In this document: positions 469 to 35,593 of the stretch, piece after piece | Numbering within the stretch: position 1 is the stretch's first letter | Layout: each line of letters opens with the position of its first letter | From: a virus | Strand: one strand, 5' to 3' | DNA: 36,987 bases | IMG/VR virus record: IMGVR_UViG_3300008261_000641 | Span: 1 to 36,987 of that record | The notes under the pieces: model-generated | The model's database searches: none | The model's input: the letters and a program-made list of their open reading frames with translations, nothing else | What the model was told of the DNA's origin: nothing | Made by a program: the position numbers and the translations under genes

Positions 469-654
469 TTACTTTCCTGTGTTAGACATCCACGCTAGGA
501 TACCGCCAAGTCCGCTCACGCCAAGAAGGGCAATGACGAACTTTGCAAGTCGGTACGCACCGCGTGTTTCAGCCATCTCTAATTTAATTTCGTTAAGGTC
601 GTTCTCGATGCGCTCGAGACGCTCGAGGATCTGCTTCGTATCAGATGGAGCCAT
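469..654 (-). CDS. Small coiled-coil plus transmembrane protein, holin-like (XhlA type)
   Basis: This 61-residue protein has an N-terminal charged coiled coil (residues 5-30, heptad-like QILERLERIENDLNEIKLEM) followed by one membrane segment (about residues 37-55, FVIALLGVSGLGGILAWM). That layout, amphipathic coil then a single C-terminal membrane helix, is typical of the XhlA/hemolysin-type accessory holins of phages. Its position at the downstream end of the late genes fits lysis. It overlaps the end of the upstream Cys-rich gene by 14 bases, so it is probably translationally coupled. No endolysin is visible in the window. It could instead be a small structural membrane protein. Confidence 0.55.
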   Translation of the reverse strand: MAPSDTKQILERLERIENDLNEIKLEMAETRGAYRLAKFVIALLGVSGLGGILAWMSNTGK

Positions 655-868
655 CTTTCTTGTCCTTTACCTTTCCCCACTTTCCCACAGGGCATTCCGA
701 ATGTGGGAGGGAGCCTTTAAGCCGCATGAAGCAGCCGCATTTCTTACACTGCTTCGACAGTTTGATAAAGAACTCACAGTCCTTGCAGATTGCGAGGCGT
801 TGCTCTAGCACCTCGTCAGATACTCGACCAATGTTTGGGTTGAGCAAATCCCATGGCTTAGAGGACAT
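641..868 (-). CDS. Cys-rich zinc-ribbon-like small phage protein
   Basis: This 75-residue protein contains ICKDCEFF, QCKKCGCFMRLKG and HSECPVGKW. The paired CxxC motifs plus further Cys and His form a probable zinc-binding ribbon. From memory, very similar small proteins (start MxKPWDLLNP, ending SECPVGKW) are frequent in phages of marine and freshwater bacteria, with no known function. The start is supported by a strong AAGGAGG six bases upstream of ATG. It follows the thioredoxin gene with a one-base gap, so the two are almost certainly co-transcribed and might both concern redox or metal chemistry, which is inference. Confidence 0.8.
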   Translation of the reverse strand: MSSKPWDLLNPNIGRVSDEVLEQRLAICKDCEFFIKLSKQCKKCGCFMRLKGSLPHSECPVGKWGKVKDKKDGSI

Positions 869-869
869 G

Positions 870-1532
870 TTAGTCCTCCTTGTGCTTACCGCACTTGCAC
901 TTGCTGCCAGACTCTGGCTTAGTCCCTACTGCTGCCATGATGTCGTCAGAGAGCGGAGCAAACCGCGACTCAATAGCATCTAGGCGCGCAAGGATGGAGC
1001 GCAGTTTGTTGTCGATCTTGGTCAGCGCTTCGTCCATACCAGCGGCGATCTCTGCAACTTGCTGGGTGGAGTCACCACAGCCAGAAGCCGTTTCTGCCTC
1101 TTCGTATTCCTCTACGCCAACGCTAGTGTCTGGATCAGACTTGATTGCTTCCAGTTCCTCTGGCGAGCGAGCGAGACCAGCCTCAAGACCGTACTGCTTG
1201 CTGAGACCCAGTTCCTTCTCAAGTTGCATCCGCTTCGCTGGTTCCCAGCCGACTGCGGAGCCGACTAGTTTCTTTCCAAAGACGAACTTGTATTGCGGGA
1301 AGTTCTGCACATTCGCAGCCAATGCAACATCCTGTTGAGCGTCAACGTCTACGACGATCACCTCTACGCCGAGGTTGCGATACTTATCCTGCAGTACTTC
1401 TAGGTACGGCTTTGCCCTTACGCAGAAGGGGCAGGATTCGGAACTAAAGAAATATACTACAGGCTTATCGGAATTCTGATCGATAAGTTCTTGCCATGCG
1501 TCATTCGGCTGGCTATTTTTTACCTTTGGCAT
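870..1532 (-). CDS. Thioredoxin-like protein with C-terminal coiled-coil extension
   Basis: The first ~110 residues are a thioredoxin fold: VVYFFSSESCPFC with the redox motif C34-P-F-C37, the strand VIVVDVDAQQD, and a cis-Pro loop NFPQYKFVFG. CPFC rather than CGPC is closer to glutaredoxin- or DsbA-like active sites. Residues ~110-220 are an acidic linker with a Cys pair, a helical segment (MDEALTKIDNKLRSILARL) and a Cys-containing tail (SKCKCGKHKED). I chose ATG at 1532 because AAAGG lies six bases upstream. A TTG at 1553 would overlap the previous gene and has no ribosome site. The role could be disulfide handling for Cys-rich virion proteins, such as the neighbouring 24-Cys fibre, or host redox modulation; neither is shown. 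The product is 220 residues. Confidence 0.85.
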   Translation of the reverse strand: MPKVKNSQPNDAWQELIDQNSDKPVVYFFSSESCPFCVRAKPYLEVLQDKYRNLGVEVIVVDVDAQQDVALAANVQNFPQYKFVFGKKLVGSAVGWEPAKRMQLEKELGLSKQYGLEAGLARSPEELEAIKSDPDTSVGVEEYEEAETASGCGDSTQQVAEIAAGMDEALTKIDNKLRSILARLDAIESRFAPLSDDIMAAVGTKPESGSKCKCGKHKED

Positions 1533-1545
1533 ATTATACCTTTCA

Positions 1546-1785
1546 TTATCCAATCATGATGCCAACGCTGTCCCCAGCAGAAGGCTCGTAGGTTACGCTG
1601 AAGTTATCAAAAGATGTTCCAGATCCAGGGCTGGCAGAGCCGAGACCCCCAAGGACAATCCCATGACCAACAGTAGTTAGATGATCTGTAAACGCTGAAG
1701 TGAGCACGCCAGTATCCGATACCGCCGTGGTCATTGCCGTGCTGGTATACCCAAGAACGCGATACGTGTTCCCAGAAGTGATCAC
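1546..1785 (-). CDS. C-terminal half of a lectin-like fibre domain, -1 frame relative to upstream gene
   Basis: This 79-residue frame starts with GTG inside the stop of the upstream gene (GTGA overlap). Its content, SGNTYRVLGYTSTAM...GIVLGG...SFDNFSVTYEPS, reads as the second half of a concanavalin/LamG-like beta sandwich. The ending FDNFSV is the usual last strand of such domains in phage fibres. The first half (DTFTRANTSTGTLG...GIAFWVENDTNFWMAW) is in the gene at 1782-2660. There is no Shine-Dalgarno of its own beyond coupling at the overlap. It is probably made by termination-reinitiation or by a frameshift as one polypeptide with its neighbour, or it is separated by an indel. Confidence 0.5.
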   Translation of the reverse strand: MITSGNTYRVLGYTSTAMTTAVSDTGVLTSAFTDHLTTVGHGIVLGGLGSASPGSGTSFDNFSVTYEPSAGDSVGIMIG

Positions 1786-2660
1786 CGGTCAACCCTTAGG
1801 TAGTACTCGTAGTCGTAGTTATTGTTCGTTGTGTAACCGCAGTTAATGCAGGCTGCGCTGTTGATCGTTGAGCCACCACCGCCAGAGCAGGTTGCTGCTG
1901 CGTTTTTATCCTCAGTCCATCCGCTGCATGTTACTGCGCAGTTTCGGTTTGTTCGGCTATTGTATCCACATGTGCTTGTACCGCACACTGGGCTGGTGTA
2001 GGTGCAAAGCGCAACGCCACAGGTTCGCTCTAGCGAAGATCCGCTGCATGAACTGACGCAGGAGGTCGACACGTTTGTGATCGTTCCGCATGTATTTGCC
2101 GTCGCGCAGTTTCTTGTTCGGTTTGTTCGGTTAACACAAGATCCACCACATGCAGAAACATAGGTAGTTGTCGTTGTTCCATTGCCGACATCGTTGCAGT
2201 TCCTGTTCCCTGTTGAGCAAGAGCCAGTTGTGCATGATGCGCAAGAAAGAGAAACGTTATTTCCAGTTCCAGTTGATGAGTTCTTTACCCCTCCGCTGTA
2301 TGTTCCGTTTCCAGTGCATCCTCCGCATGAGCATGATGTGCAACTATTGCAGGTGACCGTAGAACTGGCAAGGTACCTGTTAGATCGTAGCCATGCCATC
2401 CAGAAGTTTGTATCGTTCTCTACCCAGAAAGCAATCCCAGGTCCATTACCATTCAGAGTGTGCATCGAAATCTCAGCGTCCGCGACGTTCGTCATGACGT
2501 ATGCTGGAGAGTTCGTTGTTCCGTTGACCTCTGCAGTGTTGCTAATAACTGCCCAACTGCTTGGGTTCTGCCAAGCCAAAACCAATCCAGTTTCGGTAGA
2601 CCCAAGGGTCCCAGTCGAGGTATTAGCCCGCGTAAACGTATCCGAAACTGTAATTGGCAT
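1782..2660 (-). CDS. Fibre protein: split lectin-like domain with a 24-Cys repeat insertion
   Basis: This is a 292-residue protein. Residues ~5-92 are the first half of a concanavalin-like sandwich (SDTFTRANTSTGTLG, then GIAFWVENDTNFWMAWL). Residues ~93-270 are a low-complexity insertion rich in Cys (about 24), Asn, Ser and Thr. Its repeated blocks such as CGGSCVNRTNRTRNC and YNSRTNRNC resemble the CxxC-G...RxRxC pattern of thrombospondin type-1 repeats. The end (YEYYLRVDR) returns to the sandwich sequence, which continues in the -1 frame in the next gene. The start ATG overlaps the stop of the upstream fibre (TAATG). It probably sits at the distal tail and binds surface glycans; the Cys block may be disulfide- or metal-stabilised. 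Confidence 0.7.
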   Translation of the reverse strand: MPITVSDTFTRANTSTGTLGSTETGLVLAWQNPSSWAVISNTAEVNGTTNSPAYVMTNVADAEISMHTLNGNGPGIAFWVENDTNFWMAWLRSNRYLASSTVTCNSCTSCSCGGCTGNGTYSGGVKNSSTGTGNNVSLSCASCTTGSCSTGNRNCNDVGNGTTTTTYVSACGGSCVNRTNRTRNCATANTCGTITNVSTSCVSSCSGSSLERTCGVALCTYTSPVCGTSTCGYNSRTNRNCAVTCSGWTEDKNAAATCSGGGGSTINSAACINCGYTTNNNYDYEYYLRVDR

Positions 2661-4042
2661 TAGTAGGTAGCCTCCACTGTAACAGAGAGATCAGCGCCAG
2701 ATGTTCCAGCACTGACAATTTCAACTTGCAGGATGTCGCCAACGGCAAGCGAGGTCACCGTTGACAGTGCAGTAGTAACGACCGAGTTTCCGACGGTTCC
2801 GCTTGTGTTTCCGTTTGTTGAACCGTTCTTAACGAGTCGATATGTCACGCCAGACCCACCACCAGCGTACGCACGAGCATTTACAAGGGTGCAGGCAATT
2901 GGCGAGATAAACCTAGGCTGCTTGACTCCAGCGGTAAGTGTTCCAGCAATGTGGAACGAGATAGGCATTTCTAGAGCGTCGATCTTAGCCTTGTCTGCTG
3001 CGCTCATAGAGCCAGCGGCTGACGTAGTTGCAGCAGAGATAGTCAAAACGTTGGCTGTCAGATCTAGCGGTGCGCTAGCGGTAATTGAACTAGACCCAGT
3101 AAACTGTGTATAGGTCACATTATCTGTGCCGATCTTGATAGCGCCCACTGGGTTTGTTGACGTTCCAGCGGCTGTCATAACAAAGCCGTCGTTGGCATTT
3201 GCCGTACCATTGAGCACAAACACGGAGTCTCCAGCGTTCAACTCACCAGCAGGACTGTTGTTTGCGTCGTCCGTTCGTGTCAAACCCCACGGCGTGCTGC
3301 CATCTCCAACGGTTGTAACTTTGTAGATACCGTTATGGATCTGGTTTGTCTGGTCCTTGACCAGAATTCGGTCATTCAGCGCTGCTGAATATCCGTCGAT
3401 GCTAATTGCGCCGTTAGAAGACGCTGTAAGTATCGCGCCAATTCCCAGACCGCCACTTGCGTCTGAGGTTCCATTCGTATAGGTAGCAGATAGATTCCCA
3501 GTTGTCGCAGCCTTGACAGCCTCGTGCGCATGAATTCCAGCAGAAATGTCATCGGCATACTGCTTGGTGACAGCATGCATGGCTGAGGTAGGGTTAGCGC
3601 CGAGAGTGATTTGATTGATAGCCGTATCGCCGCTCGAGTTGCGGAGCACAATCGTGCTCGCGGTTGCCGATGCTGTTGCCGTCGTCTGGTTGTTGAGAAC
3701 GGTTAGTGTGTTGCTGTTTCCGTCGATGGTTTTATTGGTAAGCGTCTGAGTCTCAGAGAGACCAGCCACGGTTGTTACGCCGTGGGTAGACGTATCCCCT
3801 TCATGGGTTGTGAGAGCGCCAGCGGCGGTAGCCTCAGCAGCAGACTGGGCGTTGTTTGCCTTTGTCGTGACCTCACTAGGAGTATCAAAAGTATATGGCA
3901 ATGCTGACCAAGTGCTCGAGCCGTTCCCGATCTTAATTTTGAGGTTGGTCTGATCTAGCCCGATCTCGCCGTCGGCAAGGATTGGGTTAACGGACGACCA
4001 GTTAGTCGCCGTATCTCGTCGCAACTTGATAATGTTTGCCAT
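2660..4042 (-). CDS. Tail fibre with Mtd-like N-terminal domain
   Basis: This 460-residue protein opens with IIKLRRDTATNW...ILADGEIGLDQTNLKIKIGNGSSTW, the characteristic phage fibre N-terminal module found in major tropism determinants and many fibres. It then has Ala/Thr/Ser/Gly-rich repetitive shaft sequence including TQTLTNKTIDGNSN, a recurring fibre repeat also present in two neighbouring fibre genes. The C-terminal ~100 residues (ISFHIAGTLTAGVKQPRF...ILQVEIVSAGTSGADLSVTVEATY) form a compact beta-rich head that is the likely receptor-binding or trimerisation domain. AAGGAG lies 11 bases before ATG. It belongs to the fibre cluster at 1.5-13.5 kb. Confidence 0.85.
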   Translation of the reverse strand: MANIIKLRRDTATNWSSVNPILADGEIGLDQTNLKIKIGNGSSTWSALPYTFDTPSEVTTKANNAQSAAEATAAGALTTHEGDTSTHGVTTVAGLSETQTLTNKTIDGNSNTLTVLNNQTTATASATASTIVLRNSSGDTAINQITLGANPTSAMHAVTKQYADDISAGIHAHEAVKAATTGNLSATYTNGTSDASGGLGIGAILTASSNGAISIDGYSAALNDRILVKDQTNQIHNGIYKVTTVGDGSTPWGLTRTDDANNSPAGELNAGDSVFVLNGTANANDGFVMTAAGTSTNPVGAIKIGTDNVTYTQFTGSSSITASAPLDLTANVLTISAATTSAAGSMSAADKAKIDALEMPISFHIAGTLTAGVKQPRFISPIACTLVNARAYAGGGSGVTYRLVKNGSTNGNTSGTVGNSVVTTALSTVTSLAVGDILQVEIVSAGTSGADLSVTVEATY

Positions 4043-4044: not shown

Positions 4045-4770
4045 TTATTTGAACTCCTTACGAGACCAGAAGAGTGTTTTGTAGGCGTTAAAGATCTTCG
4101 TGCTTAGTTTGTTAAAGACCTTATTGCCTTTCTCAATTTCCTCATTCCCGCCAATGCTCATCTCCCACGCATCTCGCTTAAATGGGATTACTTGCACCAT
4201 TGGCGTTCCTGCTGGGATCAACCCCGTAAAGTTGGGGTCTTCTAGGACAAACGGGAAATTAACCTCGTTTGTATACGTATCTGTATCTACAACTCCAGGC
4301 ATGCAGGTAAAGATGCCATTAGGGTTGTGCATCGGAGAGATGATAAGAACTGAATATCCATTTGGCGTTTCAATCATCCATGGATTCATCAGTTTTGGAA
4401 CGGTTTTATCTTTCTTGACCATCGGGTGGTGGACCGCCTGCCCGTTGTCATGACCGCTAACCTTAAAACTATTATGACGACCAACAAACTCCTGCTCGCC
4501 AGAATCTTCATTCATGCGAACCCAGATGTCTGCTGGAGTTACAAGGATATATCCAGCGGTAATTGCATCAAGTACTGGCACGCAACGCTTAATGGTTGCG
4601 TTAGGCTCCCCATGATGGGTGACAGCCTTTTCGTAGCCAGCATCTTTGCCCCTGCCATAGCCTCCATAGGCTTCCATTTTTACGTACCACTCAGGAAGGT
4701 TCTTATCGGATGGGCGCGGGTAAAACTCCTCATCCACCTCATACCTGGTCGTAAATTTAATGTTCTTCAT
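4045..4770 (-). CDS. Conserved phage protein of unknown function inside fibre cluster
   Basis: This 241-residue soluble protein is not fibre-like. It has motifs such as RPSDKNLPEWYVKM, TIKRCVPVLDAITAGYILVTPADIWV, NPWMIETPNGYSVLIISPMH, GVVDTDTYTNEVNFPFV and GTPMVQVIPFKRDAWEM. From memory these match a widespread uncharacterised family in tailed phages of aquatic bacteria (I believe DUF6065-type), often located among tail genes. The composition suggests a beta-rich, possibly cupin-like enzyme or a small-molecule binding fold, but no catalytic residues can be named with confidence. It starts with ATG after GGAG and its start overlaps the stop of the upstream fibre (TAATG), so it is translated with the fibres. 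Confidence 0.75.
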   Translation of the reverse strand: MKNIKFTTRYEVDEEFYPRPSDKNLPEWYVKMEAYGGYGRGKDAGYEKAVTHHGEPNATIKRCVPVLDAITAGYILVTPADIWVRMNEDSGEQEFVGRHNSFKVSGHDNGQAVHHPMVKKDKTVPKLMNPWMIETPNGYSVLIISPMHNPNGIFTCMPGVVDTDTYTNEVNFPFVLEDPNFTGLIPAGTPMVQVIPFKRDAWEMSIGGNEEIEKGNKVFNKLSTKIFNAYKTLFWSRKEFK

Positions 4771-22346: not shown

Positions 22347-22472
22347 CTACGAAGACGTGTGAATGCAGCGCTTGAAGATGGCTCGGCGTTTACCGCCAAG
22401 GTCTAGCGACTTATTGCGCTGAAGAACCGCTTTCTTGAGCAGGCTCTTGTTCCGAGCGAAGGGTCGAGCCAT
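22347..22472 (-). CDS. 41-residue basic protein overlapping the glycosyltransferase 3-prime end
   Basis: An ATG at 22,472 follows a strong AAGGGAGG with a six-base spacer inside the glycosyltransferase gene. The frame reads MARPFARNKSLLKKAVLQRN to TAG at 22,347, overlapping the upstream gene by 62 bases in a different frame. The peptide contains a duplicated RNKSL and is highly basic (at least 13 Arg/Lys/His), suggesting nucleic-acid or capsid-interior binding. The ribosome site, and the fact that it fills the otherwise empty gap before the connector gene, argue for a real gene. I do not recognise a family. Confidence 0.6.
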   Translation of the reverse strand: MARPFARNKSLLKKAVLQRNKSLDLGGKRRAIFKRCIHTSS

Positions 22473-23616
22473 TGAAAGCCTCCCTTAGATATTCTTGATA
22501 GTTGTCCCAAGTAAGTTCTTTTGCACGCTCAATGCCCTTCTTGGACATGATGGCGCGGCGCTCTGCGCTCTTTCGAAGTCGGCTAATCTCGTCAGCAATG
22601 ACGGATGGCTTGATGTTGGCGTATCTGCTATGGCTTTTGTTAATCACCCAGTCATTGACCTGCAATCTAACACCAGCATTGCCGATTACCTCAGCCCCTG
22701 CGCCGTAGTTCGTATGCATCACGGGAAGACCGCACGCCATTGCCTCAGCCAAAGGAAGACCAAAGCCTTCCACCTGTGAGGGCAGGACAAATACGTCTGC
22801 CATGTTATAGAGATCAACAAGACCAGGCTTGTTGACTCCGCGCAGTTCAATCGCGTCGTTGTGACGCTTATGATCTGGCGGGAAGAATACTCGGTCGGAG
22901 ATCCCCATCTCTACCGCAAGTTGCGGGAGATTGTGTCCGCCGAGGTAGTAGTTGTTAAACGGAACTGTATGTGCATACAGGATAACGTCTTTGTACTTGC
23001 TCGAGATAATACTGATCGCCTCGAACAAACGTCCCCATTGCTTTCGCTCGACGTTCTGTGCTACGCACATGACGACGAACTTATCGTTCCAGCCTACGGC
23101 ATAGCGCTTGGCATCTCGCTCATCCGCACTCATTGGTGCGAAGTCGCTCGAAACCCCATGGTACGCCATCTTCGCATTCAGACCCGCTGCCTTTAGGATC
23201 TCCACGCCGTAGTTTGAGCACGTGATTAGATTGAGCCTTGGTGTCTGACTTAGAACGTCGACCCACTGCTGATTCAGCGGAGCGCCCTCGACGGGCATGT
23301 ACGCCGTGATCGGAAGTTGGTACAGATTCTTTTTGAGAAGCCATGCTGTCACCGTTGCTGGATCGCCAATGATGTGGACTGCCTCAGGAGCATGCTCCTC
23401 AACGACCTCATCTACTAGCGTCCATCCAATCGAGTCAATAGCCTGATTCTTGATCGGGAAGAACTTACCACCAGGGATTTCCCTTTGGGCTGTGTCCTGT
23501 CCGCCGATGACGAGCAACTCATGACCCGCATCGAGCAATTCTTTGTAGGCAACGGAATTGACGATACCGAAGCCAGTTTTAATAAACGGGGAATCACCAA
23601 GCATCAGGATTTTCAT
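22411..23616 (-). CDS. GT4-type (GT-B fold) glycosyltransferase in the head-gene cluster
   Basis: This 401-residue protein starts at ATG 23,616, chosen because GAGG lies six bases upstream; an ATG nine codons earlier overlaps the previous gene. The N-terminal Rossmann-like part (MKILMLGDSPFIKTGFGIV, then PITAYMPVEG, SNYGVEILKAAGL) is joined to a C-terminal nucleotide-sugar-binding domain (FVVMCVAQNVERKQW, LVDLYNMADVFVLPSQVEGFGLPLAEAMACGLPVM). The EX7E retaining signature is E283...E291. No membrane segment is seen. Genes of this type between capsid and connector genes may glycosylate virion proteins or host surface sugars; the substrate is unknown. Confidence 0.9.
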   Translation of the reverse strand: MKILMLGDSPFIKTGFGIVNSVAYKELLDAGHELLVIGGQDTAQREIPGGKFFPIKNQAIDSIGWTLVDEVVEEHAPEAVHIIGDPATVTAWLLKKNLYQLPITAYMPVEGAPLNQQWVDVLSQTPRLNLITCSNYGVEILKAAGLNAKMAYHGVSSDFAPMSADERDAKRYAVGWNDKFVVMCVAQNVERKQWGRLFEAISIISSKYKDVILYAHTVPFNNYYLGGHNLPQLAVEMGISDRVFFPPDHKRHNDAIELRGVNKPGLVDLYNMADVFVLPSQVEGFGLPLAEAMACGLPVMHTNYGAGAEVIGNAGVRLQVNDWVINKSHSRYANIKPSVIADEISRLRKSAERRAIMSKKGIERAKELTWDNYQEYLREAFNGSTLRSEQEPAQESGSSAQ

Positions 23617-23617
23617 G

Positions 23618-23833
23618 TCAGTCCTCGACGATCTCGTAGCCATTCATGCGCATGCGGTTGACCCAGTGCGGCTTATCCGCAGGGATCACTGCTACGCTAT
23701 TCACAACTTCAACTTCACCGTCGTAGAAATACTCGGTGCAGTTGATATCAGACGAAACTTCATGCTTCATCTTGACATCTTTTGGCTCGCCATCGAGTCG
23801 AGAGATCGAAGGTTCTACTCGCTTAGGCATCAT
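23618..23833 (-). CDS. Small protein downstream of major capsid gene, function unknown
   Basis: This 71-residue protein has AAAGGAGG just before two adjacent ATG codons (23,833 and 23,830). The sequence PSISRLDGEPKDVKMKHEVSSDINCTEYFYDGEVEVVNSVAVIPADKPHWVNRMRMNGYEIVED is mixed alpha/beta with a C-terminal acidic end. Small proteins at this site are common in phages and include capsid decoration or stabilising proteins, but there is no recognisable family here. It follows hairpins after the capsid gene and its TGA overlaps the context of the glycosyltransferase start. Confidence 0.65.
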   Translation of the reverse strand: MMPKRVEPSISRLDGEPKDVKMKHEVSSDINCTEYFYDGEVEVVNSVAVIPADKPHWVNRMRMNGYEIVED

Positions 23834-29637: not shown

Positions 29638-30034
29638 TTTGTATAAACGTCACGGCGTTCGGCACATCGTCGCCCTTCTCGTGCTTTTCCATCTGGAAAC
29701 GGAGCGCGAGGAGTTCTTTGATCGTGCTGGAGCGCTGTGTCGCCTCCCGTGTTAGTTGCCCACCGCTGATCTCGTCCGCGAGTTGAGGGAGCAAGGCTTT
29801 GAGTTGGAGCGACAAGAAGATGTCAATGTCCTTCTCAAGCACGGGCTTTTCTTGACCACCGAGGACTCCTGACAGGTAGTTCCAGTCCTCACGGGAAAGG
29901 AACGGAGCCAGTTTCTCTTTGAGCGCCGTGACGGAGACCGTTTCGGTCTTCGGCTTGGTCCGCGCCCCTTTGGGTCGTCCTCGGTTCGCCGCGCCTACCG
30001 AGGCAGTCGCGGCACGCTTGGGTGTATCGGACAT
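29465..30034 (-). CDS. Probable terminase small subunit-like protein
   Basis: This is the first gene of the late module, directly before the large terminase. The 189-residue protein has a basic Gly/Arg/Lys N-terminus (RGRPKGARTKPKTET) of the kind seen in phage terminase small subunits, and a helical centre (VTALKEKLAPFLSREDWNYLSGVLGG ... DIDIFLSLQLKALLPQLADEI ... STIKELLALRFQMEKHEK). The C-terminal ~57 residues are Asp/Glu/Pro-rich and overlap the large-subunit gene in another frame. No classical helix-turn-helix is clear, so the call rests mostly on position and composition. The ribosome site is weak (GAG eight bases before ATG). Confidence 0.6.
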   Translation of the reverse strand: MSDTPKRAATASVGAANRGRPKGARTKPKTETVSVTALKEKLAPFLSREDWNYLSGVLGGQEKPVLEKDIDIFLSLQLKALLPQLADEISGGQLTREATQRSSTIKELLALRFQMEKHEKGDDVPNAVTFIQNVFESRGIDPARLATLSGAVGSPIEGVSVALPRTPDGDQGDADETGAVSDSVPERQE

Positions 30035-30093
30035 CTGGGTGTCTCTACTTTCAAATCGAATTTTTTAAAATTTTGACCGCCCCATCAGTTGTA

Positions 30094-30106
30094 CCAGTCA
30101 GGCTGG
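30094..30106. promoter_or_regulatory. Operator-like inverted repeat CCAG-TCAGG-CTGG
   Basis: CCAGTCAGGCTGG is an interrupted palindrome, overlapping a second one (GGCTG-GT-CAGCC, 30,101-30,112). A related site CCAGTTTAGCCTGG occurs at 30,147-30,160 and CCAGTCAGACCAGG at 30,292-30,305. Repetition of CCAG half-sites in a divergent spacer suggests repressor binding. Confidence 0.35.
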
Positions 30107-30146
30107 TCAGCCAGTGGGTAGTCGTAATTTTTTTTCTAACCATCTT

Positions 30147-30160
30147 CCAGTTTAGCCTGG
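30147..30160. promoter_or_regulatory. Operator-like inverted repeat CCAG-N6-CTGG
   Basis: CCAGTTTAGCCTGG has palindromic CCAG/CTGG ends and is the second member of the set in the divergent spacer. Confidence 0.3.
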
Positions 30161-30506
30161 TAAGAATAGTCTTCCTACTCTATATGGGATTTAGGGTACT
30201 GATTCGTCCTGATATTAAACATAGAGTATGACTTTGACCAAGGAACACCCCTCTTTTTCTGCCCATGCCTGCCAGATTGTTACAGTTTCTGCCAGTCAGA
30301 CCAGGGTATGGGTAAAAAAGTTAGAAAAGTACATGTATTTCCTGTCGCTACCAGCCCGAGGCGAAGAAACTCTTTATGGAGCCATTTCTAGGGTGGGAAT
30401 AGGGTGGCATTATTCGCGGATTCTGGGCGTGCGTGCTGCGAATCTATGCGTAGCGGGAACGGGGCGGCACTAGTCGCCCCCCCCGCCTAGTGTTAGGGGG
30501 TACGCA

Positions 30507-31301
30507 ATGGGAACGGAACGCAACGCAACGGCTACGGGGTCGGTAGCACTCCGCACGGGCGACGATGTCGCCGCGTGGGATGCTATCCGCGCCGCGGTCG
30601 CCGCTAACGGGTCGGTTAGGTTCGCGGTTGCCGCGGTCGCCGATGCCGACGATATCGCGGCGGAGGGGTTCGCCGCGTGGGTGTCGGCGGGTCGCCCCGC
30701 GTGGTCGGCGTATGATGCCGCACTCGCCGCGGTTCGCGCACTCCGCCCGCATCGCGACACTATCGGCGACGATGCCGACGCGGTCGGGTATATGTCGGAG
30801 GATATCGGCGACGGGCTAACCCTCGCCGATGTCGCCGCGGATATCGCCGACGATAGCGGCGACTATGTCGCGACGGGTACGGCGCGCGGATTCGCCGACG
30901 GGTCGCGGTTCGCGATTGTGTACGCGGGCGGCTACGATGCCGACACCGCGACGCTAACCGATGCCGCGGGGCGGGTAGTCGCGACGGGATCGGATGCGAT
31001 CCTCGCCGCGCGTACCCTCGCCCTACGGGATGAGGTCGCCGCGTCGCACGGGGTCGCCGCGGCTAACCGCGGGGCGGCTAACCTCGCCGCGTGGGAGGGT
31101 CGCGATGAGGATGTTGCCGCGGCACTCCGCGACGCTGGCACGGGTCGCGGCTACGCGGCACGGGTCGCGGTCGCGATGGGTTGGATGTCGGAGGATAGCA
31201 CCCCCGCCGAACGACTCGCCGCGATGAATCGCGCACGGGTCGCGGTCGCGCGACTCCGCCGCCGCACTAACCCCGACGAGTCGCACTCATCGCGCGACTA
31301 G
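30507..31301 (+). CDS. Large Ala/Asp-rich right-arm protein of unknown function, extreme codon bias
   Basis: This 264-residue protein has a good start (AGGGGG seven bases before ATG). It is Ala-, Asp-, Val-, Gly- and Arg-rich and has no Lys, Gln or Cys. A repeated element G[YW]MSED appears near residues 94 and 225, each followed by a helical LA-rich segment. Codon use is almost limited to CpG-containing or C/G-ending codons: Leu is CTC/CTA, and CAG, AAG and CTT triplets are absent from the gene in any frame. It is preceded by the same leader hairpin type as downstream genes but has no copy of the 28-base element. It ends before a double terminator. The function is not recognisable; no membrane or enzyme motifs are seen. 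Confidence 0.75.
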   Translation: MGTERNATATGSVALRTGDDVAAWDAIRAAVAANGSVRFAVAAVADADDIAAEGFAAWVSAGRPAWSAYDAALAAVRALRPHRDTIGDDADAVGYMSEDIGDGLTLADVAADIADDSGDYVATGTARGFADGSRFAIVYAGGYDADTATLTDAAGRVVATGSDAILAARTLALRDEVAASHGVAAANRGAANLAAWEGRDEDVAAALRDAGTGRGYAARVAVAMGWMSEDSTPAERLAAMNRARVAVARLRRRTNPDESHSSRD

Positions 31302-31307
31302 CAGGGA

Positions 31308-31331
31308 GGGCGGGGGGTAGCACCCCCGCCC
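31308..31331 (+). terminator. First hairpin of tandem terminator
   Basis: GGGCGGGGG (31,308-31,316) pairs with CCCCCGCCC (31,323-31,331), a perfect 9-bp stem starting seven bases after the stop codon. It is followed at once by a second hairpin with a U-tract. Confidence 0.65.
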
Positions 31332-31334
31332 TAG

Positions 31335-31370
31335 CACCCCTCGCCCCTAGCGGGCGGGGGGTGTTTTTTT
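31335..31370 (+). terminator. Strong intrinsic terminator
   Basis: CACCCCTCGCCC (31,335-31,346) pairs with GGGCGGGGGGTG (31,352-31,363), with one wobble and a five-base loop, and is followed directly by seven T residues (31,364-31,370). It ends transcription of the 264-residue gene. Confidence 0.92.
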
Positions 31371-31534
31371 GTACCCGCTACACGCACGCCCTACCCGTAC
31401 ACCCCGCAACGCGCCACGCTACGCCCCGCAACGGGTCGCACCCCTACAATCCCGCACCCCGCCCGATATCGCCCCGCTACGGGTCGCGTACGCGGTCGCC
31501 CTACTCCCGCCGCCACAATCCGCGCGGGTCGTAG
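31371..31534. other. GC-rich spacer without a gene
   Basis: These 164 bases lie between the terminator and the first repeat element. The sequence is C/CpG-rich (blocks such as CCCGCAACG and GGGTCGC) without a supported ORF or clear structure. Frames that cross it read into the downstream repeat and have no ribosome site. Confidence 0.5.
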
Positions 31535-31590
31535 TGTGTAATGGTCGCGGTTGGGACATAGCCCGTAATGGTTGGTGTATAGAGTGGAGG
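31535..31590 (+). promoter_or_regulatory. Repeat elements B1 (31,535-31,557) and A1 (31,562-31,590)
   Basis: B1 is GTAATGGTNGCGGTTGGG-type and A1 is CCGTAATGGTTGGTGTATA followed by GAGTGGAGG. The GTAATG cores are 27 bases apart. A1 is followed by a hairpin GGGGCGGA-CAA-TCCGCCCC (31,589-31,607), then GATAGTGTAAGGGG and the start of the 62-residue membrane protein. Confidence 0.8.
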
Positions 31591-31631
31591 GGCGGACAAT
31601 CCGCCCCCCGATAGTGTAAGGGGTGAACGAT

Positions 31632-31820
31632 ATGGAAACGACGGATAAGGTGCTCATCATTGGCGGAGTCGTCGCAGGGGCGGTGCTCGGTCAGCACTTC
31701 GCGGATATTGTCGGCGGCATCGTCGGCGGGTTCGCAGGGCTAGGGGTGGTGTGCGTAGTCTACGCAATCGCGGACGAAGTGAATATGCGACTCCGCGAAC
31801 ACTACACACGCAAGGCGTAA
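31632..31820 (+). CDS. Small membrane protein, Gly-rich hydrophobic
   Basis: This 62-residue protein starts at ATG 31,632, with AAGGGG eight bases upstream; a GTG three codons earlier is too close to that site. VLIIGGVVAGAVLGQHFADIVGGIVGGFAGLGVVCVVYAIADEV forms two Gly-zipper-like hydrophobic segments, followed by a basic tail (MRLREHYTRKA). It could be a small holin, superinfection-exclusion or membrane-modifying protein. It belongs to an isolated cassette with A1 upstream and a hairpin downstream. Confidence 0.75.
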   Translation: METTDKVLIIGGVVAGAVLGQHFADIVGGIVGGFAGLGVVCVVYAIADEVNMRLREHYTRKA

Positions 31821-31828
31821 GGGTAGAC

Positions 31829-31865
31829 GGCACGGGTAGGGGGTAGCGTTCCCCCCTCCCGTGCC
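31829..31865 (+). terminator. Hairpin after small membrane protein gene
   Basis: GGCACGGGTAGGGGG pairs with CCCCCCTCCCGTGCC (one bulge), giving a 14-bp stem eight bases after the stop. There is no T-run. This is typical of the GC-rich gene-end hairpins of this arm. Confidence 0.6.
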
Positions 31866-31880
31866 GCTACGCATTGGATA

Positions 31881-31936
31881 TGTGTAATGGTAGCGGTTGG
31901 GACATAGCCCGTAATGATTCGTGTATATATTGGAGG
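31881..31936 (+). promoter_or_regulatory. Repeat elements B2 (31,881-31,903) and A2 (31,908-31,936)
   Basis: The GTAATG cores are at 31,884 and 31,911 (27 bases apart). A2 reads CCCGTAATGATTCGTGTATA then TATTGGAGG (one G-to-C change in the core). It is followed by a GGGG...ATCCATCCCC leader and CTAGTGTAGAGGTG before the next ATG. Confidence 0.8.
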
Positions 31937-31973
31937 GGTGGGGTATCCATCCCCCTAGTGTAGAGGTGCTACG

Positions 31974-32315
31974 ATGGGACTACTCGCAACGATCCGCCGC
32001 AACGGGGGGGCTACGCTCAATGCGGATACCCTAACCGACGCGGCACTATCCGACGGCTACGCGGTCGGCGTGGCAACGGGTACGGCACTCATCCTCCCCG
32101 ATGATGCCGATGATACGACCCTCGGGGTCGCACTCCGACTCATCGCGGGGGCGTATGATTGTTCGTTCGTCGGGGCGTGGGTCGCCGATGACGGGGTACA
32201 CCTAGACCCCGTGGAGGTCGCCCCTACCCTCGCCGATGCGATGGTGGCGGGTCGCCGCTACCAGCAGCGGGCGGTGTACGACCTAGCCCGCGGCGAAGAG
32301 GTCGCGGTCGCCTAG
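31974..32315 (+). CDS. Conserved actinophage-type hypothetical protein
   Basis: This 113-residue protein has GAGGTG five bases before ATG. It reads MGLLATIRRNGGATLNADT...SDGYAVGVATGTALIL, ending in CSFVGAWVADDGVHLDPVEVAPTLADAMVAGRRYQQRAVYDLARGEEV. The pattern GG.T......GY.VG....YVG.W...G..Y.DPVEV....A...GR.R.Q.A..DL..G.E is, from memory, a common small early protein of actinobacteriophages without known function. Codons are GC-rich as in the 264-residue gene. It is a single-gene cassette with A2 upstream. Confidence 0.8.
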   Translation: MGLLATIRRNGGATLNADTLTDAALSDGYAVGVATGTALILPDDADDTTLGVALRLIAGAYDCSFVGAWVADDGVHLDPVEVAPTLADAMVAGRRYQQRAVYDLARGEEVAVA

Positions 32316-32355
32316 CGGGGCGGGGCGGGGGCGGGATGCCCTCGCCCCATCCCCT

Positions 32356-32416
32356 ACCATTACACATATGGTTCCGTATTCCCGCGCGCTTTTTCATAGA
32401 CGATATGTGTAATGGT
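32356..32416. repeat. 14-bp inverted repeat around a 33-base loop (B-prime / B3)
   Basis: ACCATTACACATAT (32,356-32,369) is the exact reverse complement of ATATGTGTAATGGT (32,403-32,416), which is the start of element B3. The loop contains CCCGCGCGC and CTTTTTC. This may be a terminator-like stem for the preceding gene or a pair of oppositely oriented protein sites. Confidence 0.8.
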
Positions 32417-32461
32417 TCAGGTTGGGACGATATCCGTAATGGTTGGTGTATATATTGGAGG
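32406..32461 (+). promoter_or_regulatory. Repeat elements B3 (32,406-32,428) and A3 (32,433-32,461)
   Basis: The GTAATG cores are at 32,409 and 32,436 (27 bases apart). A3 ends TATATATTGGAGG and leads into GGGCGGAGAATCCATCCCC and GATAGTGCGAGGTG before the next start. Confidence 0.8.
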
Positions 32462-32497
32462 GGGCGGAGAATCCATCCCCGATAGTGCGAGGTGTAT

Positions 32498-32725
32498 ATG
32501 GTTCGGTTGATGGTTCAGGTGTTCGCGGAAACAACATACGAACGGGCGTTCTATCAGGTGGAGTTGGCGGCACGCACCGAGAAGGGTGTATTCCGCGAGG
32601 GTAAGAAACTCGCCGCCGCCCTAGCCGCAACATTGGAGGGGCGTACCATTACCAGCGGGGTGATGCTAACGGAAAACGCGCAACGGGCGGCGTACGGGTC
32701 GGTGATCCAAAGCAACTACCGATAG
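32498..32725 (+). CDS. Small right-arm protein, unknown
   Basis: This 75-residue protein starts at ATG 32,498, with GAGG five bases upstream; a GTG six bases earlier overlaps the ribosome site. The sequence VRLMVQVFAETTYERAFYQVELAARTEKGVFREGKKLAAALAATLEGRTITSGVMLTENAQRAAYGSVI suggests an alpha/beta fold with a helical middle. There is no recognisable domain. It is a cassette gene with A3 upstream and a GGGCGGG...CCCGCCC hairpin (about 32,737-32,760) downstream. Confidence 0.75.
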   Translation: MVRLMVQVFAETTYERAFYQVELAARTEKGVFREGKKLAAALAATLEGRTITSGVMLTENAQRAAYGSVIQSNYR

Positions 32726-32767
32726 GCGGTAGCGGGGGGCGGGGGGAAACTCCCGCCCTAACCGCGC

Positions 32768-32837
32768 GCATTACACATATCGGGTCTTCCATTACGGGCT
32801 TCGTGGTTGTCCGATCCCGCGGGAATATGTGTAATGC
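32768..32837. repeat. 13-bp inverted repeat of B element with an inverted A core in its loop
   Basis: GCATTACACATAT (32,768-32,780) is the exact reverse complement of ATATGTGTAATGC (32,825-32,837, part of B4). Inside the loop CCATTACGGGCT (about 32,790-32,801) is the reverse complement of the element-A start AGCCCGTAATGG. Both element types are therefore present in inverted form just upstream of the direct B4-A4 pair. Confidence 0.8.
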
Positions 32838-32883
32838 TGGCGGTTGGGACGAACTCCGTAATGGTTGGTGTATATAGTGGAGG
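32828..32883 (+). promoter_or_regulatory. Repeat elements B4 (32,828-32,850) and A4 (32,855-32,883)
   Basis: The GTAATG cores are at 32,831 and 32,858 (27 bases apart). The leader is GGGCAGGGAGAATCCCCGCC, then CCTAGTGTTGGAGGTGTTT before ATG 32,921. Confidence 0.82.
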
Positions 32884-32920
32884 GCAGGGAGAATCCCCGC
32901 CCCTAGTGTTGGAGGTGTTT

Positions 32921-33226
32921 ATGCCTAGCAGGGTCGCTAATAAATCGGCGGAGTTTCATATTCGCAACGGCATCCCGTTCGTAGGGTCTAACTTCTACGG
33001 GGTCAAGGGGTCAATGTTGTTCGGGTCGGATCGTTGGTATCTGGCAGGGGCAGCGTTGGAACGATGGTCAAAGGATCAAGACGCGGGGCGGATCGTGTAC
33101 TCGGTCTGGTCGTACGCAACCCCGATTGCGTGGCTGGTTGAGGGCGAGGGTTGGATCATCCCGCCCGTCAAGTACTCAATGAGCACGGGTCGGCATCAAG
33201 GGTATGTGCGCCGCGCGGTAGCGTAG
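32921..33226 (+). CDS. Conserved phage hypothetical protein (VWSYATPIAW family)
   Basis: This 101-residue protein starts at ATG 32,921, with GGAGG five bases upstream; frames extending further upstream only translate the repeat element. It contains GRIVYSVWSYATPIAWLVEGEGWIIPPVKYSMSTGRHQGYVRRA, which from memory matches a very common small phage protein (VY.VYSY.TPIA......W.VP...YS.TTSRHQ) of unknown function found in actinophages. It is followed by a stem GGGGAGGGGGC/GCCCTCTCCCC. Confidence 0.82.
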   Translation: MPSRVANKSAEFHIRNGIPFVGSNFYGVKGSMLFGSDRWYLAGAALERWSKDQDAGRIVYSVWSYATPIAWLVEGEGWIIPPVKYSMSTGRHQGYVRRAVA

Positions 33227-33233
33227 GCGGCAA

Positions 33234-33260
33234 GGGGAGGGGGCAGGTCGCCCTCTCCCC
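33234..33260 (+). terminator. GC-rich hairpin after 101-residue gene
   Basis: GGGGAGGGGGC (33,234-33,244) pairs with GCCCTCTCCCC (33,250-33,260), an 11-bp stem with one wobble, eight bases after the stop. TACTACC follows and there is no T-run. Confidence 0.6.
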
Positions 33261-33270
33261 TACTACCATA

Positions 33271-33350
33271 TGTGTAATGATTGCGGTTGGGCTAATATGT
33301 GTAATGGTAGCGGTTGCGCCGAAGTCCGTAATGCTTGGTGTATATAGTGG
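33271..33350 (+). promoter_or_regulatory. Repeat elements B5a, B5b and A5 in 27-bp register
   Basis: GTAATG cores occur at 33,274, 33,301 and 33,328, exactly 27 bases apart each. A5 has CTTGGTGTATA and ends AGTGGAAGA, so it lacks the GGAGG ribosome site and no gene follows it. Confidence 0.78.
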
Positions 33351-33378
33351 AAGACAAGCAACGATGCTCAATACGAAG

Positions 33379-33407
33379 TCCGTAATGGATGGTGTATAGA
33401 GTGGAGG
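33379..33407 (+). promoter_or_regulatory. Repeat element A6
   Basis: TCCGTAATGGATGGTGTATA then GAGTGGAGG. Its core is 54 bases (2 x 27) after A5. It is followed by a GAATCC leader but no clear gene. Confidence 0.75.
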
Positions 33408-33602
33408 GGCAGACCGAATCCTAGGATCGGTACGACTTCCAATGGTGAGGCTCTTGGACGAGCGAGCAGTTATGCCGCAGCCATAAATGCGGGTATAAGA
33501 GGGGCAAAGGGCGATGACCGCTAAACCAATGTATCGGAGGAGCGGTAGGGCGCGAGGAGGGCAACCCCCGACGGGGGGCAAACCCGAATCACCCGAACAA
33601 GA

Positions 33603-33628
33603 GGGGGCTACCCGACGGGGTAGTCCCC
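33603..33628 (+). terminator. Intrinsic-terminator-like hairpin
   Basis: GGGGGCTACCC (33,603-33,613) pairs with GGGTAGTCCCC (33,618-33,628), one wobble, four-base loop, followed by TTCTTGCTT. Confidence 0.65.
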
Positions 33629-33681
33629 TTCTTGCTTACCCTCTACCATTACACACATCCAAATCCATCCGATTCCCTATA

Positions 33682-33736
33682 TGTGTAATGCTACGGGTTG
33701 CGCCGAACTCCGTAATGATTGGTGTATATATTGAGG
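33682..33736 (+). promoter_or_regulatory. Repeat elements B7 (33,682-33,704) and A7 (33,709-33,736)
   Basis: The GTAATG cores are at 33,685 and 33,712 (27 bases apart). An inverted CATTACAC copy lies upstream at 33,647-33,654. A7 ends TATATATTGAGG. Confidence 0.78.
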
Positions 33737-33761
33737 GGCGACCCCAACAAGGGGCAGAGAG

Positions 33762-33827
33762 ATGGGTGAGGTGAAATCGGAAACTCACTCCCGCCGCAGG
33801 AGGGTGAAACTGCCGTCCCTCAGATAG
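33762..33827 (+). CDS. Possible 21-residue Arg/Lys-rich microprotein
   Basis: ATG 33,762 follows AGGGGCAGAGAG after element A7 and the frame (MGEVKSETHSRRRRVKLPSL plus one Arg) ends with a TAG that directly abuts element A8. Other certain genes of this arm end in the same way. The peptide is very basic (RRRR). Evidence is limited to layout, ribosome-like purines and the stop position. Confidence 0.4.
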   Translation: MGEVKSETHSRRRRVKLPSLR

Positions 33828-33857
33828 CCCGTAATGGGTGGTGTATATAGTGGGAGG
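33828..33857 (+). promoter_or_regulatory. Repeat element A8
   Basis: CCCGTAATGGGTGGTGTATA then TAGTGGGAGG. It supplies the Shine-Dalgarno seven bases before ATG 33,865. Confidence 0.82.
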
Positions 33858-33864
33858 TGTACCA

Positions 33865-34053
33865 ATGGCAGTAGGCGTGAACTTGACGGACTTGATCCGC
33901 TACGAGAACGGGGAGATGACCGAGGAGGAGGTTGTGAACTTCTTCCAAGACCTCTACGATTCTGGGGTGTGGCATCAACTACAAGGGCATTACCAGCGCA
34001 CGATGAACGATCTCGTTCAGGCGGGACTGGTGTCGGTGTTCGGGAGCAACTAA
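33865..34053 (+). CDS. Small conserved phage protein (NLTDLIRYE...LQGHYQRT family)
   Basis: This 62-residue protein starts at ATG 33,865, with GGGAGG seven bases upstream. GVNLTDLIRYENGEMTEEEVVNFFQDLYDSGVWHQLQGHYQRTMNDLVQAGLVSVFG is, from memory, the signature of a very common small phage protein (LTDLI.YE.GEL.EEE...LFQ.LVDTG..W.LQGHYGR.A..LI..G; I believe DUF7417-like). It has an all-helical prediction and unknown function. Two hairpins follow. Confidence 0.85.
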   Translation: MAVGVNLTDLIRYENGEMTEEEVVNFFQDLYDSGVWHQLQGHYQRTMNDLVQAGLVSVFGSN

Positions 34054-34084
34054 TACAAGGGGGGCGCACTACCCCCCGACCTCT

Positions 34085-34117
34085 GGGACGGCAGGGACGC
34101 ACCCCCCCTGCCGTCCC
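34085..34117 (+). terminator. Perfect 12-bp hairpin after 62-residue gene
   Basis: GGGACGGCAGGG (34,085-34,096) pairs with CCCTGCCGTCCC (34,106-34,117), nine-base loop, followed by TTCTACC. A smaller GGGGGG/CCCCCC stem precedes it. Confidence 0.65.
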
Positions 34118-34368
34118 TTCTACCATATCCATATGTGTAATGCTTGCGGTTGGGCTGGCAGGGCTGGCAAATGTGTAATGGTTGGGGTTGGGCTGGCAGA
34201 ACTGGGCAGGATTGTGGGGAAATGGTAAAGAAAACCTAACCAAACCATAATCATTACACACATAATCGCGCGACGGGAATAGCCTAGATTTAGTGTGTAA
34301 TGGAAAAGGTTCAGACAAAGAGCAAGTTCGTAATGGTCTGGGTTGATTCGTGCTCAGAAGGGTATATA
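34118..34368. promoter_or_regulatory. 251-base non-coding region with clustered B-type repeats
   Basis: There are GTAATG cores at 34,137, 34,175, 34,297 and 34,330, three with TGTG in front and GGTTGGG-type tails, plus a 10-bp inverted copy CATTACACAC (34,252-34,261) facing GTGTGTAATG (34,293-34,302). A relatively AT-rich stretch (TGGTAAAGAAAACCTAACCAAACC) lies between them. No supported ORF is present. It could be a replication origin with iterons or a complex control region for the following array. Confidence 0.5.
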
Positions 34369-34397
34369 TCCGTAATGATTGGTGTATAGAGTGGAGG
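34369..34397 (+). promoter_or_regulatory. Repeat element A9
   Basis: TCCGTAATGATTGGTGTATA then GAGTGGAGG, followed by GTGAGCATCCCCTAGTG, a shortened form of the leader. Confidence 0.82.
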
Positions 34398-34415
34398 GTG
34401 AGCATCCCCTAGTGG

Positions 34416-34481
34416 ATGAGTCTACCCCCCTATGTGATCGCCATATTTATGGGGTATTTCGGCGCGATTTATAGCCCGTAA
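34416..34481 (+). CDS. Possible 21-residue hydrophobic microprotein
   Basis: ATG 34,416 opens MSLPPYVIAIFMGYFGAIYS plus Pro, a single membrane-spanning peptide. Its TAA stop is formed by the first bases of element A10 (CCGTAA). There is no ribosome site at optimal distance (GGAGG of A9 is ~18 bases upstream), so support comes from the A9/A10 bracketing and the membrane-like sequence only. Confidence 0.35.
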   Translation: MSLPPYVIAIFMGYFGAIYSP

Positions 34482-34502
34482 TGATTGGTGTATAGGGTGA
34501 GG
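34475..34502 (+). promoter_or_regulatory. Repeat element A10
   Basis: CCCGTAATGATTGGTGTATA then GGGTGAGG. It is followed by only ~30 bases with GAATCC before A11, and no gene fits between. Confidence 0.8.
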
Positions 34503-34533
34503 GGTTCGGTGTGAATCCCGACCGACGAGGTAG

Positions 34534-34563
34534 TCGGTAATGGTGGGTGTATATAGTGGGAGG
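34534..34563 (+). promoter_or_regulatory. Repeat element A11
   Basis: TCGGTAATGGTGGGTGTATA then TAGTGGGAGG. It provides the ribosome site five bases before ATG 34,569. Confidence 0.8.
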
Positions 34564-34568
34564 TGTGT

Positions 34569-34940
34569 ATGGCGTACTACAAGGGCAATACGAGTCTACC
34601 AGAGCATTGGGGAGTGATCCGCACGACCCTTCACGATGGGACTGAGCGTGTGAGTAAGCGGTGGATGGCGTACGAGGGTGCGGATACCCTTGACGACTTC
34701 CGCCAAGCGTGGAAGCGCACCCGTGTGTGGAAGTGCGGGATTGCTCATCAGGATGCGTATCGGATTGAGCCGACCCCGTGCGCGGTGTGCGGCGTGCTCA
34801 TCACGCAGGACTGCGACCCGAACGACCGCCCCTTCGTGGAGTGGAAGCGCGGGTGGGCGGATCTACGGGTCAAGCATTACAAGTGCGCGTGGGGTCAGAC
34901 TCTCAACGCGGTGGTGAACCTGAGTCGGGAACTAGCATAG
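34569..34940 (+). CDS. 123-residue protein with a Cys pair, unknown
   Basis: It starts at ATG 34,569 after GGGAGGTGTGT. The sequence AYYKGNTSLPEHWGVIRTTLHDGTERVSKRWMAYEGADTLDDFRQAWKRTRVWKCGIAHQDAYRIEPTPCAVCGVLITQDCDP...WKRGWADLRVKHYKCAWG contains a CAVC and several further Cys/His that may bind zinc, with Trp-rich basic segments. The family is not recognised. Its TAG is followed immediately by element A12, the start of the compact part of the array. Confidence 0.75.
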   Translation: MAYYKGNTSLPEHWGVIRTTLHDGTERVSKRWMAYEGADTLDDFRQAWKRTRVWKCGIAHQDAYRIEPTPCAVCGVLITQDCDPNDRPFVEWKRGWADLRVKHYKCAWGQTLNAVVNLSRELA

Positions 34941-34969
34941 TCCGTAATGGTTGGTGTATAGAGTAGGAG
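34941..34969 (+). promoter_or_regulatory. Repeat element A12
   Basis: TCCGTAATGGTTGGTGTATA then GAGTAGGAG directly after a TAG stop. A CCCCCTAATGGGGG hairpin and a second GGAGG follow before ATG 35,000. Confidence 0.82.
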
Positions 34970-34999
34970 CACCCCCTAATGGGGGAGATGGAGGTGGGT

Positions 35000-35236
35000 A
35001 TGTCTGAGCAGGAGTTTATCAACATCACGCCTAGCAGCGACGGCTACGCAATGATGGCGGCGGTGTTCGCTGAGGATATTCTGGGCAATATCCGCAAGAG
35101 TGATCGGGAGCGTATGACCGCACTCTTGGGATCGGTTATCAACATTTCGGCGCACTTGGGCAACAAAGCGGCGCAGGACGACGCGGACGCGATCAAAGCG
35201 TACGAGTGGCTCGTGGAGCGGTTCCCCGCGAAGTAA
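35000..35236 (+). CDS. 78-residue helical protein, unknown
   Basis: ATG 35,000 is preferred (GGAGGTGGGT just upstream); ATG 34,979 would add seven residues and uses the GGAG of A12. The sequence MSEQEFINITPSSDGYAMMA continues with AVFAEDILGNIRKSDRERMTALLGSVINISAHLGNKAAQDDADAIKAYEWLVERF. It is a mostly helical, acidic-to-neutral protein without recognised motifs. Its TAA lies directly before A13. Confidence 0.75.
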   Translation: MSEQEFINITPSSDGYAMMAAVFAEDILGNIRKSDRERMTALLGSVINISAHLGNKAAQDDADAIKAYEWLVERFPAK

Positions 35237-35237
35237 G

Positions 35238-35267
35238 CCCGTAATGGTTGGTGTATAGGGTAGGAGG
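35238..35267 (+). promoter_or_regulatory. Repeat element A13
   Basis: CCCGTAATGGTTGGTGTATA then GGGTAGGAGG, six bases before ATG 35,274 and one base after the previous stop. Confidence 0.83.
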
Positions 35268-35273
35268 TGGGTT

Positions 35274-35495: not shown

Positions 35496-35506
35496 CCGAA
35501 ATCATT

Positions 35507-35522
35507 ACGCGCTTCGGCGCGT
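35507..35522 (+). terminator. UUCG-tetraloop hairpin
   Basis: ACGCGC-TTCG-GCGCGT forms a 6-bp stem with an extra-stable UUCG loop nine bases after the end of the WFDGYEE gene. No T-run follows, and a B element begins eight bases later. Confidence 0.55.
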
Positions 35523-35529
35523 GTGGAAG

Positions 35530-35593
35530 TGTGTAATGCTAGTGGTTGGGGTCAAAAGCAAAGCCCGTAATGATTGGTGTATAGAGTGGGAGG
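35530..35593 (+). promoter_or_regulatory. Repeat elements B14 (35,530-35,553) and A14 (35,564-35,593)
   Basis: The B core is at 35,533 and the A core at 35,567, 34 bases apart instead of 27. A14 is CCCGTAATGATTGGTGTATA then GAGTGGGAGG, six bases before ATG 35,600. Confidence 0.8.

Follow-up and report, generated by a model that had tools for sequence, protein, structure and literature searches.

The window, by which we mean the whole 36,987-base stretch of an IMG/VR virus record that was analyzed here, carries the gene set of a tailed phage. At positions 1546 to 2660 of its minus strand lies a lectin-like gene that is read in two ORFs. The first (1782..2660, 292 aa, shortened relative to its kin) encodes the N-terminal half of a ConA/CBM-like sandwich, a cysteine-rich insertion, and a returning stalk strand; the second (1546..1785, 79 aa, with a GTG start) encodes the C-terminal half of the sandwich and is a separate ORF solely through a missing segment. 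In the first product, family alignments and an N-half HMM match (4.9e-10) place the N-terminal sandwich half and an outgoing stalk strand (..GIAFWVENDTNFWMAWLRSNRY..) at residues 1-103 (2352..2660), followed by the insertion, a proposed disulfide-paired knob, at residues 104-274 (1839..2351) and by the returning stalk strand (..NYDYEYYLRVDR) at residues 275-292 (1785..1838). All 24 cysteines of the first ORF fall within the 171 residues of the insertion, and the second ORF has none. A first-pass annotation of this DNA had described a beta-sandwich broken by a 24-cysteine insertion and completed in the next ORF, with a thioredoxin and a cysteine-rich gene downstream, and each of these elements was found. 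Since the same gene is a single unbroken ORF of 386-398 aa in L002, L003/L004, L007, and L031, the two ORFs of the window are halves that belong together.

The downstream neighbors, both on the minus strand, are a thioredoxin-domain protein with a CPFC motif and a conserved C-terminal tail (870..1553; PF00085, 3.4e-11) and a small CxxC-type protein (641..868; DUF6171/phrog_13558), which has similar counterparts downstream in L011/L012 and L017. Upstream of the lectin gene lie tail-fiber genes, the nearest of which (2660..4042, minus strand) has an N-terminal Mtd_N domain (PF18454, 1.5e-12; phrog_8745, 2.6e-23). Between the tail-fiber genes sits a phrog_7084 gene with a weak DUF6065 match (4045-4770), which does not look fiber-like by its matches and which keeps this place in L002 and L003. 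Two further features of the window were noticed: a putative glycosyltransferase gene, recognized by eye, inside the structural gene module (22411-23643), and a region (30001-36987) with a sharp rise in G+C content and GC skew, mixed gene orientation, and Ala-rich ORFs on the plus strand.

The thioredoxin gene adjoins the lectin gene in 13/13 records of the window clade that extend downstream. The two genes overlap or are separated by at most 16 nt in 10 of these records and by 636-640 nt in two, while in the window the distance from the stop codon of the first ORF is 231 nt. PF00085 was matched in 10/11 clade records, and the CxxC motif is present in all nine aligned thioredoxin members. Among 29 other records of the family, 23 had no PF00085 match and six had one that lay, by coordinates, far from the lectin gene. 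A family-wide role for the thioredoxin was rejected on this basis, the adjacency being a property of the window clade; within that clade, it is possible that the protein keeps the cysteines of its neighbor reduced or isomerizes their disulfides. The thioredoxin tail is nearly identical in the window, L002, and L003, where it ends in CKCGKHKED; the thioredoxin domain itself diverges much more, and distant relatives lack that end. The record G004, which contains L008, has its lectin gene at one end and its thioredoxin match at the other, an arrangement that would fit a circularly permuted genome.

We recovered three syntenic records with the neighboring thioredoxin as bait, and a profile of the lectin gene then found more. 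Profile scans of IMG/VR phage records gave 258 family matches in one case and 109 in another, 80 of the 258 and 80 of the 109 being listed. The first-pass annotation had called the cysteine-rich repeats rare in phages; applied to the architecture as a whole, this is wrong. Other collections returned little. Phage tblastn searches with the window ORF, its N-terminal half, L011, L002, L018, and L022 found no relative, and the sole match to L026 covered 43 residues in two Burkholderia phages. PHROGs had no match for the first ORF of the window and weak or N-terminal matches for its relatives; NCBIfam gave one match (E 0.1), and a PDB sequence search with L002 found nothing. The large terminase of the window has distant phage matches only. 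The A6 scan of genome contigs yielded 10 pattern matches, none of them a relative, and therefore identified no host. A literature search, which left out most subscription papers and is a weak negative for that reason, found no description of such a phage family or architecture.

Throughout the family, the sandwich consists of two recognizable halves, and the insertion lies between them at one fixed loop, after a strand of the type GIAFWVTDxNxWW. What occupies this site varies widely. In the window the insertion is rich in Cys, Asn, Ser, and Thr, in L024 and L025 it consists of Tyr-rich repeats with single cysteines, and in L018 and L026 it contains dense CC/CxC stretches. At the same loop of L103 (4142-5242 of that record) the insertion is very Tyr-rich and free of cysteine. 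Lengths across the family range from 56 to 485 residues, and L030 and L038 have no insertion. L030 also provides the sole match to PF13385 (Laminin_G_3), at an E value of 0.0022 that is below the curated cutoff. Because these two members are insertion-free and one of them weakly resembles Laminin_G_3, a known fold appears to have gained or expanded an insertion at one loop.

The domain of L018 (248 aa, 14 cysteines in the insertion) was modeled with 43 family sequences, and the predicted structure reached a pLDDT of 84.9 and a pTM of 0.79. The sandwich was predicted confidently, and strands 81-103 and 137-158 leave it as a beta-ribbon extended around the insertion, which sits at the ribbon tip with low confidence (pLDDT about 50). 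A model of L002 from an eight-sequence alignment was unusable (pLDDT 31.4). Among solved structures, the nearest folds to the L018 model were CBM66 (Z 17.1 over 153 residues, 2.7 A) and the C-terminal domain of the central fiber of mycobacteriophage Douge (Z 16.1), followed by the receptor-binding domain of TM4 gp23 (Z 13.7); numerous lectins and GH43 accessory domains were also among the neighbors. Viral neighbors among predicted structures include uncharacterized proteins of uncultured phages as well as minor tail proteins encoded by Arthrobacter and Gordonia phages. The N-half HMM match given above links the window to this fold, and a C-half HMM matched L002 at 2.2e-8. The lectin domain is accordingly modeled, on the homologue L018, as a ConA-like/CBM jelly-roll. 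The gene would thus encode a phage ConA-like tail domain, a kind already known, in which the unusual, rule-bound insertion is the new element.

The rule concerns the number of cysteines. All 107 distinct complete insertions, which hold between 0 and 64 cysteines, have an even count, one of them being without cysteine. Evenness extends to 55/55 clusters at 50% identity and to 29/29 clusters at 35% single linkage, for which the probability of an all-even outcome by chance is about 2 to the power -54 and 2 to the power -28, respectively, if the clusters are independent. Other residues do not behave in this way: among the same 107 insertions, counts are even in 56 for G, 43 for S, 49 for T, 43 for N, 56 for Y, and 58 for A, and across the other residues that average more than 3 per insertion, the even share is 40-55%. 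In 48 of the 107 insertions at most 20% of neighboring cysteines lie within four residues of each other, so evenness does not arise from paired motifs alone. This regularity across insertions is not visible from any single sequence.

The count was made in two steps. In the first set, all 72 distinct insertions, which formed 41 clusters at 50% identity, were even; the prediction and a fixed counting rule were then written down before further loci were fetched with another profile, and 35/35 new insertions, including 14 clusters found only in the held-out set, were even as well. The rule extends the insertion 12 residues into the C-terminal half, a boundary that was chosen after the first view of the data, since a few of the final cysteines lie where the C-half match begins, and that predates the held-out loci. 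Counted over the whole domain without this boundary, cysteines were even in 65/75 of the first set and 31/35 of the held-out set. Insertion-bearing exceptions have one extra cysteine inside the sandwich (L033/L034 are odd solely through one such residue), and two of the first ten exceptions are insertion-free.

The input to this count comprised 214 ORFs, repeat copies included, with an N-half match, of which 201 matched both halves. The 13 ORFs that lacked a C-half match and were left out are the window itself, present twice (window, L001); the insertion-free L030 and L038; the contig-truncated L098, L100, L117, L133, L138, L166, and L208; and L070 and L149, which have 12 cysteines and a disrupted C-terminal half. 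The 24 cysteines of the window are therefore additional to the 107 counts. Also left out were L042 (22 cysteines), which fell under the N-half threshold, and four members whose loop is under 20 residues (L088, L089, L091, and L096). In these four, the lectin loop has 7 residues, and a C-terminal tail carries cysteine-rich modules between long polyproline runs; the modules contain 2, 18, 12, 6, and 6 cysteines, each an even number.

Cysteine columns were next compared within the window clade (the window, L002, L003, L007, L008, and L010). Cysteine was invariant in 22 columns, and every variable column belonged to one of three patterns, each made up of exactly two columns. Cys112 (codon 2325..2327, minus strand) and Cys258 (codon 1887..1889, minus strand) are both kept in the window and jointly absent from L003, L007, L008, and L010. 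Conversely, Gly124 (codon 2289..2291, minus strand) and Trp248 (codon 1917..1919, minus strand) of the window are both cysteines in L002, L003, L007, L008, and L010. The third pair is found in L002 only. Across all clusters, the columns in a gain or loss pattern are even in number in 23/33 cases, and the remaining patterns come from weakly aligned clusters. Paired changes are the trace expected if entire disulfides were lost and gained, and they nominate Cys112 and Cys258, as well as the positions 124 and 248, as candidate partners. The 107/107 even counts and the paired loss suggest that the cysteines of the insertion are joined in disulfides.

The insertion can also diverge far faster than the scaffold that carries it. 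We compared 25 pairs of our own choosing. Sandwich and insertion identities were 99% and 54% for L113/L122 (18 cysteines each), 96% and 58% for L016/L101 (4 cysteines each), and 90% and 57% for L033/L140 (26 and 24 cysteines). Synonymous change was far higher in these insertions as well, with a dS for L113/L122 of 0.92 in the insertion and 0.05 in the sandwich, suggesting that selection alone does not explain the divergence and that segments were exchanged by recombination. Pairs L018/L071, L164/L165, and L156/L154 showed no faster insertion; since some pairs lack the contrast, exchange would be episodic.

We consider it probable that the gene encodes a tail receptor-binding domain of the ConA-like/CBM type that displays a fully disulfide-paired, exchangeable knob, with the disulfides, the location in the virion, and the binding of a receptor all being deduced parts of this reading. 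In such a protein, two long antiparallel strands would exit the sandwich as a ribbon and hold a fast-changing cysteine-rich segment at the tip. All cysteines of the knob would pair once the particle has left the cell, oxidation presumably following release, and pairing would make the knob a rigid surface in contact with the host. The knob could change by point substitution, by gain or loss of repeats, and by exchange of cassettes, under the constraint that cysteines move in pairs, and in the window clade the neighboring thioredoxin might assist it. A broader proposal, which we offer tentatively, is that phages have evolved an antibody-like display scaffold independently of antibodies, with a conserved sandwich, a ribbon stalk, and open-ended, fully disulfide-paired knobs whose cassettes pass between genomes and track changing host receptors.

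The insertion could instead be a structural or protective element, such as a protease-resistant spacer or a cross-link that locks an oligomer, and not a binder. A low-complexity Ser/Thr/Gly/Asn composition and the cysteine-free, Tyr-rich version in L103 would suit such an element; in several of the pairs above, however, the insertion sequence outpaces the scaffold, which is better explained by receptor-driven change, and we regard this alternative as unlikely. Phages assemble in the reducing cytoplasm, a circumstance that favors binding of a metal (zinc or iron-sulfur) by the cysteines in place of disulfides. CxxC spacings are indeed common in some insertions, and metal sites, too, use fixed numbers of cysteines, but 43 of the 107 insertions have a cysteine count that is not a multiple of four, the sparse spacing in 48 of the 107 is poorly suited to metal sites, His averages only 1.0 per insertion, and the window clade has lost its cysteines two at a time. 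Metal binding is therefore improbable in our judgment, and we retain the disulfide-paired knob as the preferred reading.

The two ORFs of the window overlap at GTGA (1782..1785, minus strand), and a TGA in the -1 frame stands six bases ahead of the GTG, both as the first-pass annotation had read them. DNA and protein alignments with L002 and L003 mark this junction as the point of a missing segment of about 85 nt (about 28 codons plus one base): the window is 85 nt short between YYLRVDR and VITSGNTYRV, where unsplit relatives have some 28 residues. Programmed frameshifting was rejected, given the intact relatives and the missing 85 nt, and the earlier preference for an indel over frameshifting was borne out. 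Coupled reinitiation, which had been put forward alongside the indel, would make the split a functional two-gene arrangement that yields a truncated product and a separate C-terminal one. Such an arrangement could draw on the overlap and on an AAGGG 7 nt upstream of the GTG, which may be a chance occurrence; against it, the window lacks about 28 sandwich residues of relatives that carry one unsplit gene, so that reinitiation is not needed and the arrangement is very unlikely. As read from the alignments, the split is a local loss of about 85 nt and not a mechanism or a feature of the gene. The loss could be either a natural deletion or an assembly error: the window copy may make no full product, or the record may be misassembled at this point. 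An exact 32-base scan for the sequence that follows the junction found it nowhere else, in a set from which near-identical records may be absent. Comparison of L017 with L018 revealed an in-frame 183-nt deletion in the lectin family, so losses of this kind, whether genuine or introduced by assembly, are also seen in other family members. In L017 the lectin gene has lost its end and continues as a fusion into the downstream DUF6171-type gene.

A hypervariable loop on a tail protein, next to a gene with an Mtd_N domain, could also be the target of a diversity-generating retroelement. Yet reverse transcriptase (PF00078) was matched in 0/40 records with the family, many of them fragmentary, and the variants differ in length and carry high synonymous change, which suggests recombination; we give a retroelement an extremely small chance. 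Thrombospondin type 1 repeats are defined by a Trp/Arg ladder and six conserved cysteines per ~60 residues. The resemblance to such repeats noted in the first-pass annotation, and with it their acquisition from a eukaryote, can be set aside with hardly any reservation, because the likeness is confined to one stretch of CGGSCVNRTNRTRNC-like spacing and to the alternation of Cys and Arg in the window clade, whereas an HMM search with four whole proteins and with four insertions matched no Pfam family at E<=10, a single Trp in the 171-residue insertion of the window makes no ladder, other insertions at the same site contain unrelated repeats, and the matches in the PDB, to alphavirus E1 with E values of 0.14 and above, did not rise over chance level.

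Variation among phage receptor-binding proteins is generally attributed to point changes, to the swapping of domains, or to mutagenesis by reverse transcriptase. If the knob reading is true, knobs of unrelated sequence with even cysteine numbers, placed on one loop of a carbohydrate-binding fold, would add a further route of diversification and supply a naturally occurring collection of disulfide-rich binders. The parity rule is a simple one that was confirmed in the held-out loci, and through it the disulfide hypothesis can be put to a direct test. A further puzzle is the folding of these proteins in a reducing cytoplasm, and here the thioredoxin gene next door in the window clade offers a concrete lead.

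Several known systems share parts of this design. The C-terminal domain of the Douge central fiber and the TM4 gp23 domain have in common with the window family the jelly-roll fold and the position among tail-fiber genes. A recombinant fragment of the Douge fiber that contains the matching domain is reported to bind both cells of M. smegmatis and glycans of the cell wall (PMC13033339). The window family, compared with these solved domains at the level of the fold, stands out by its large, even-cysteine insertion at one loop. CBM66 of Bacillus subtilis, the best solved fold, is 14% identical, and, with an aligned chain of just 161 residues, it carries no insertion comparable to those of the family. 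A parallel in design is the bovine ultralong CDR-H3, whose diversity is made somatically. By analogy, both present a variable, cysteine-rich knob on a beta-ribbon stalk that rises from a beta-sandwich. In the bovine case, the source describes a beta-ribbon stalk with a disulfide-rich knob in which the disulfides organize the binding surface (PMC8602281). The bovine scaffold is an immunoglobulin fold without homology to the phage domain, and the knob studied in that source has three disulfides, compared with up to 64 cysteines in the phage family.
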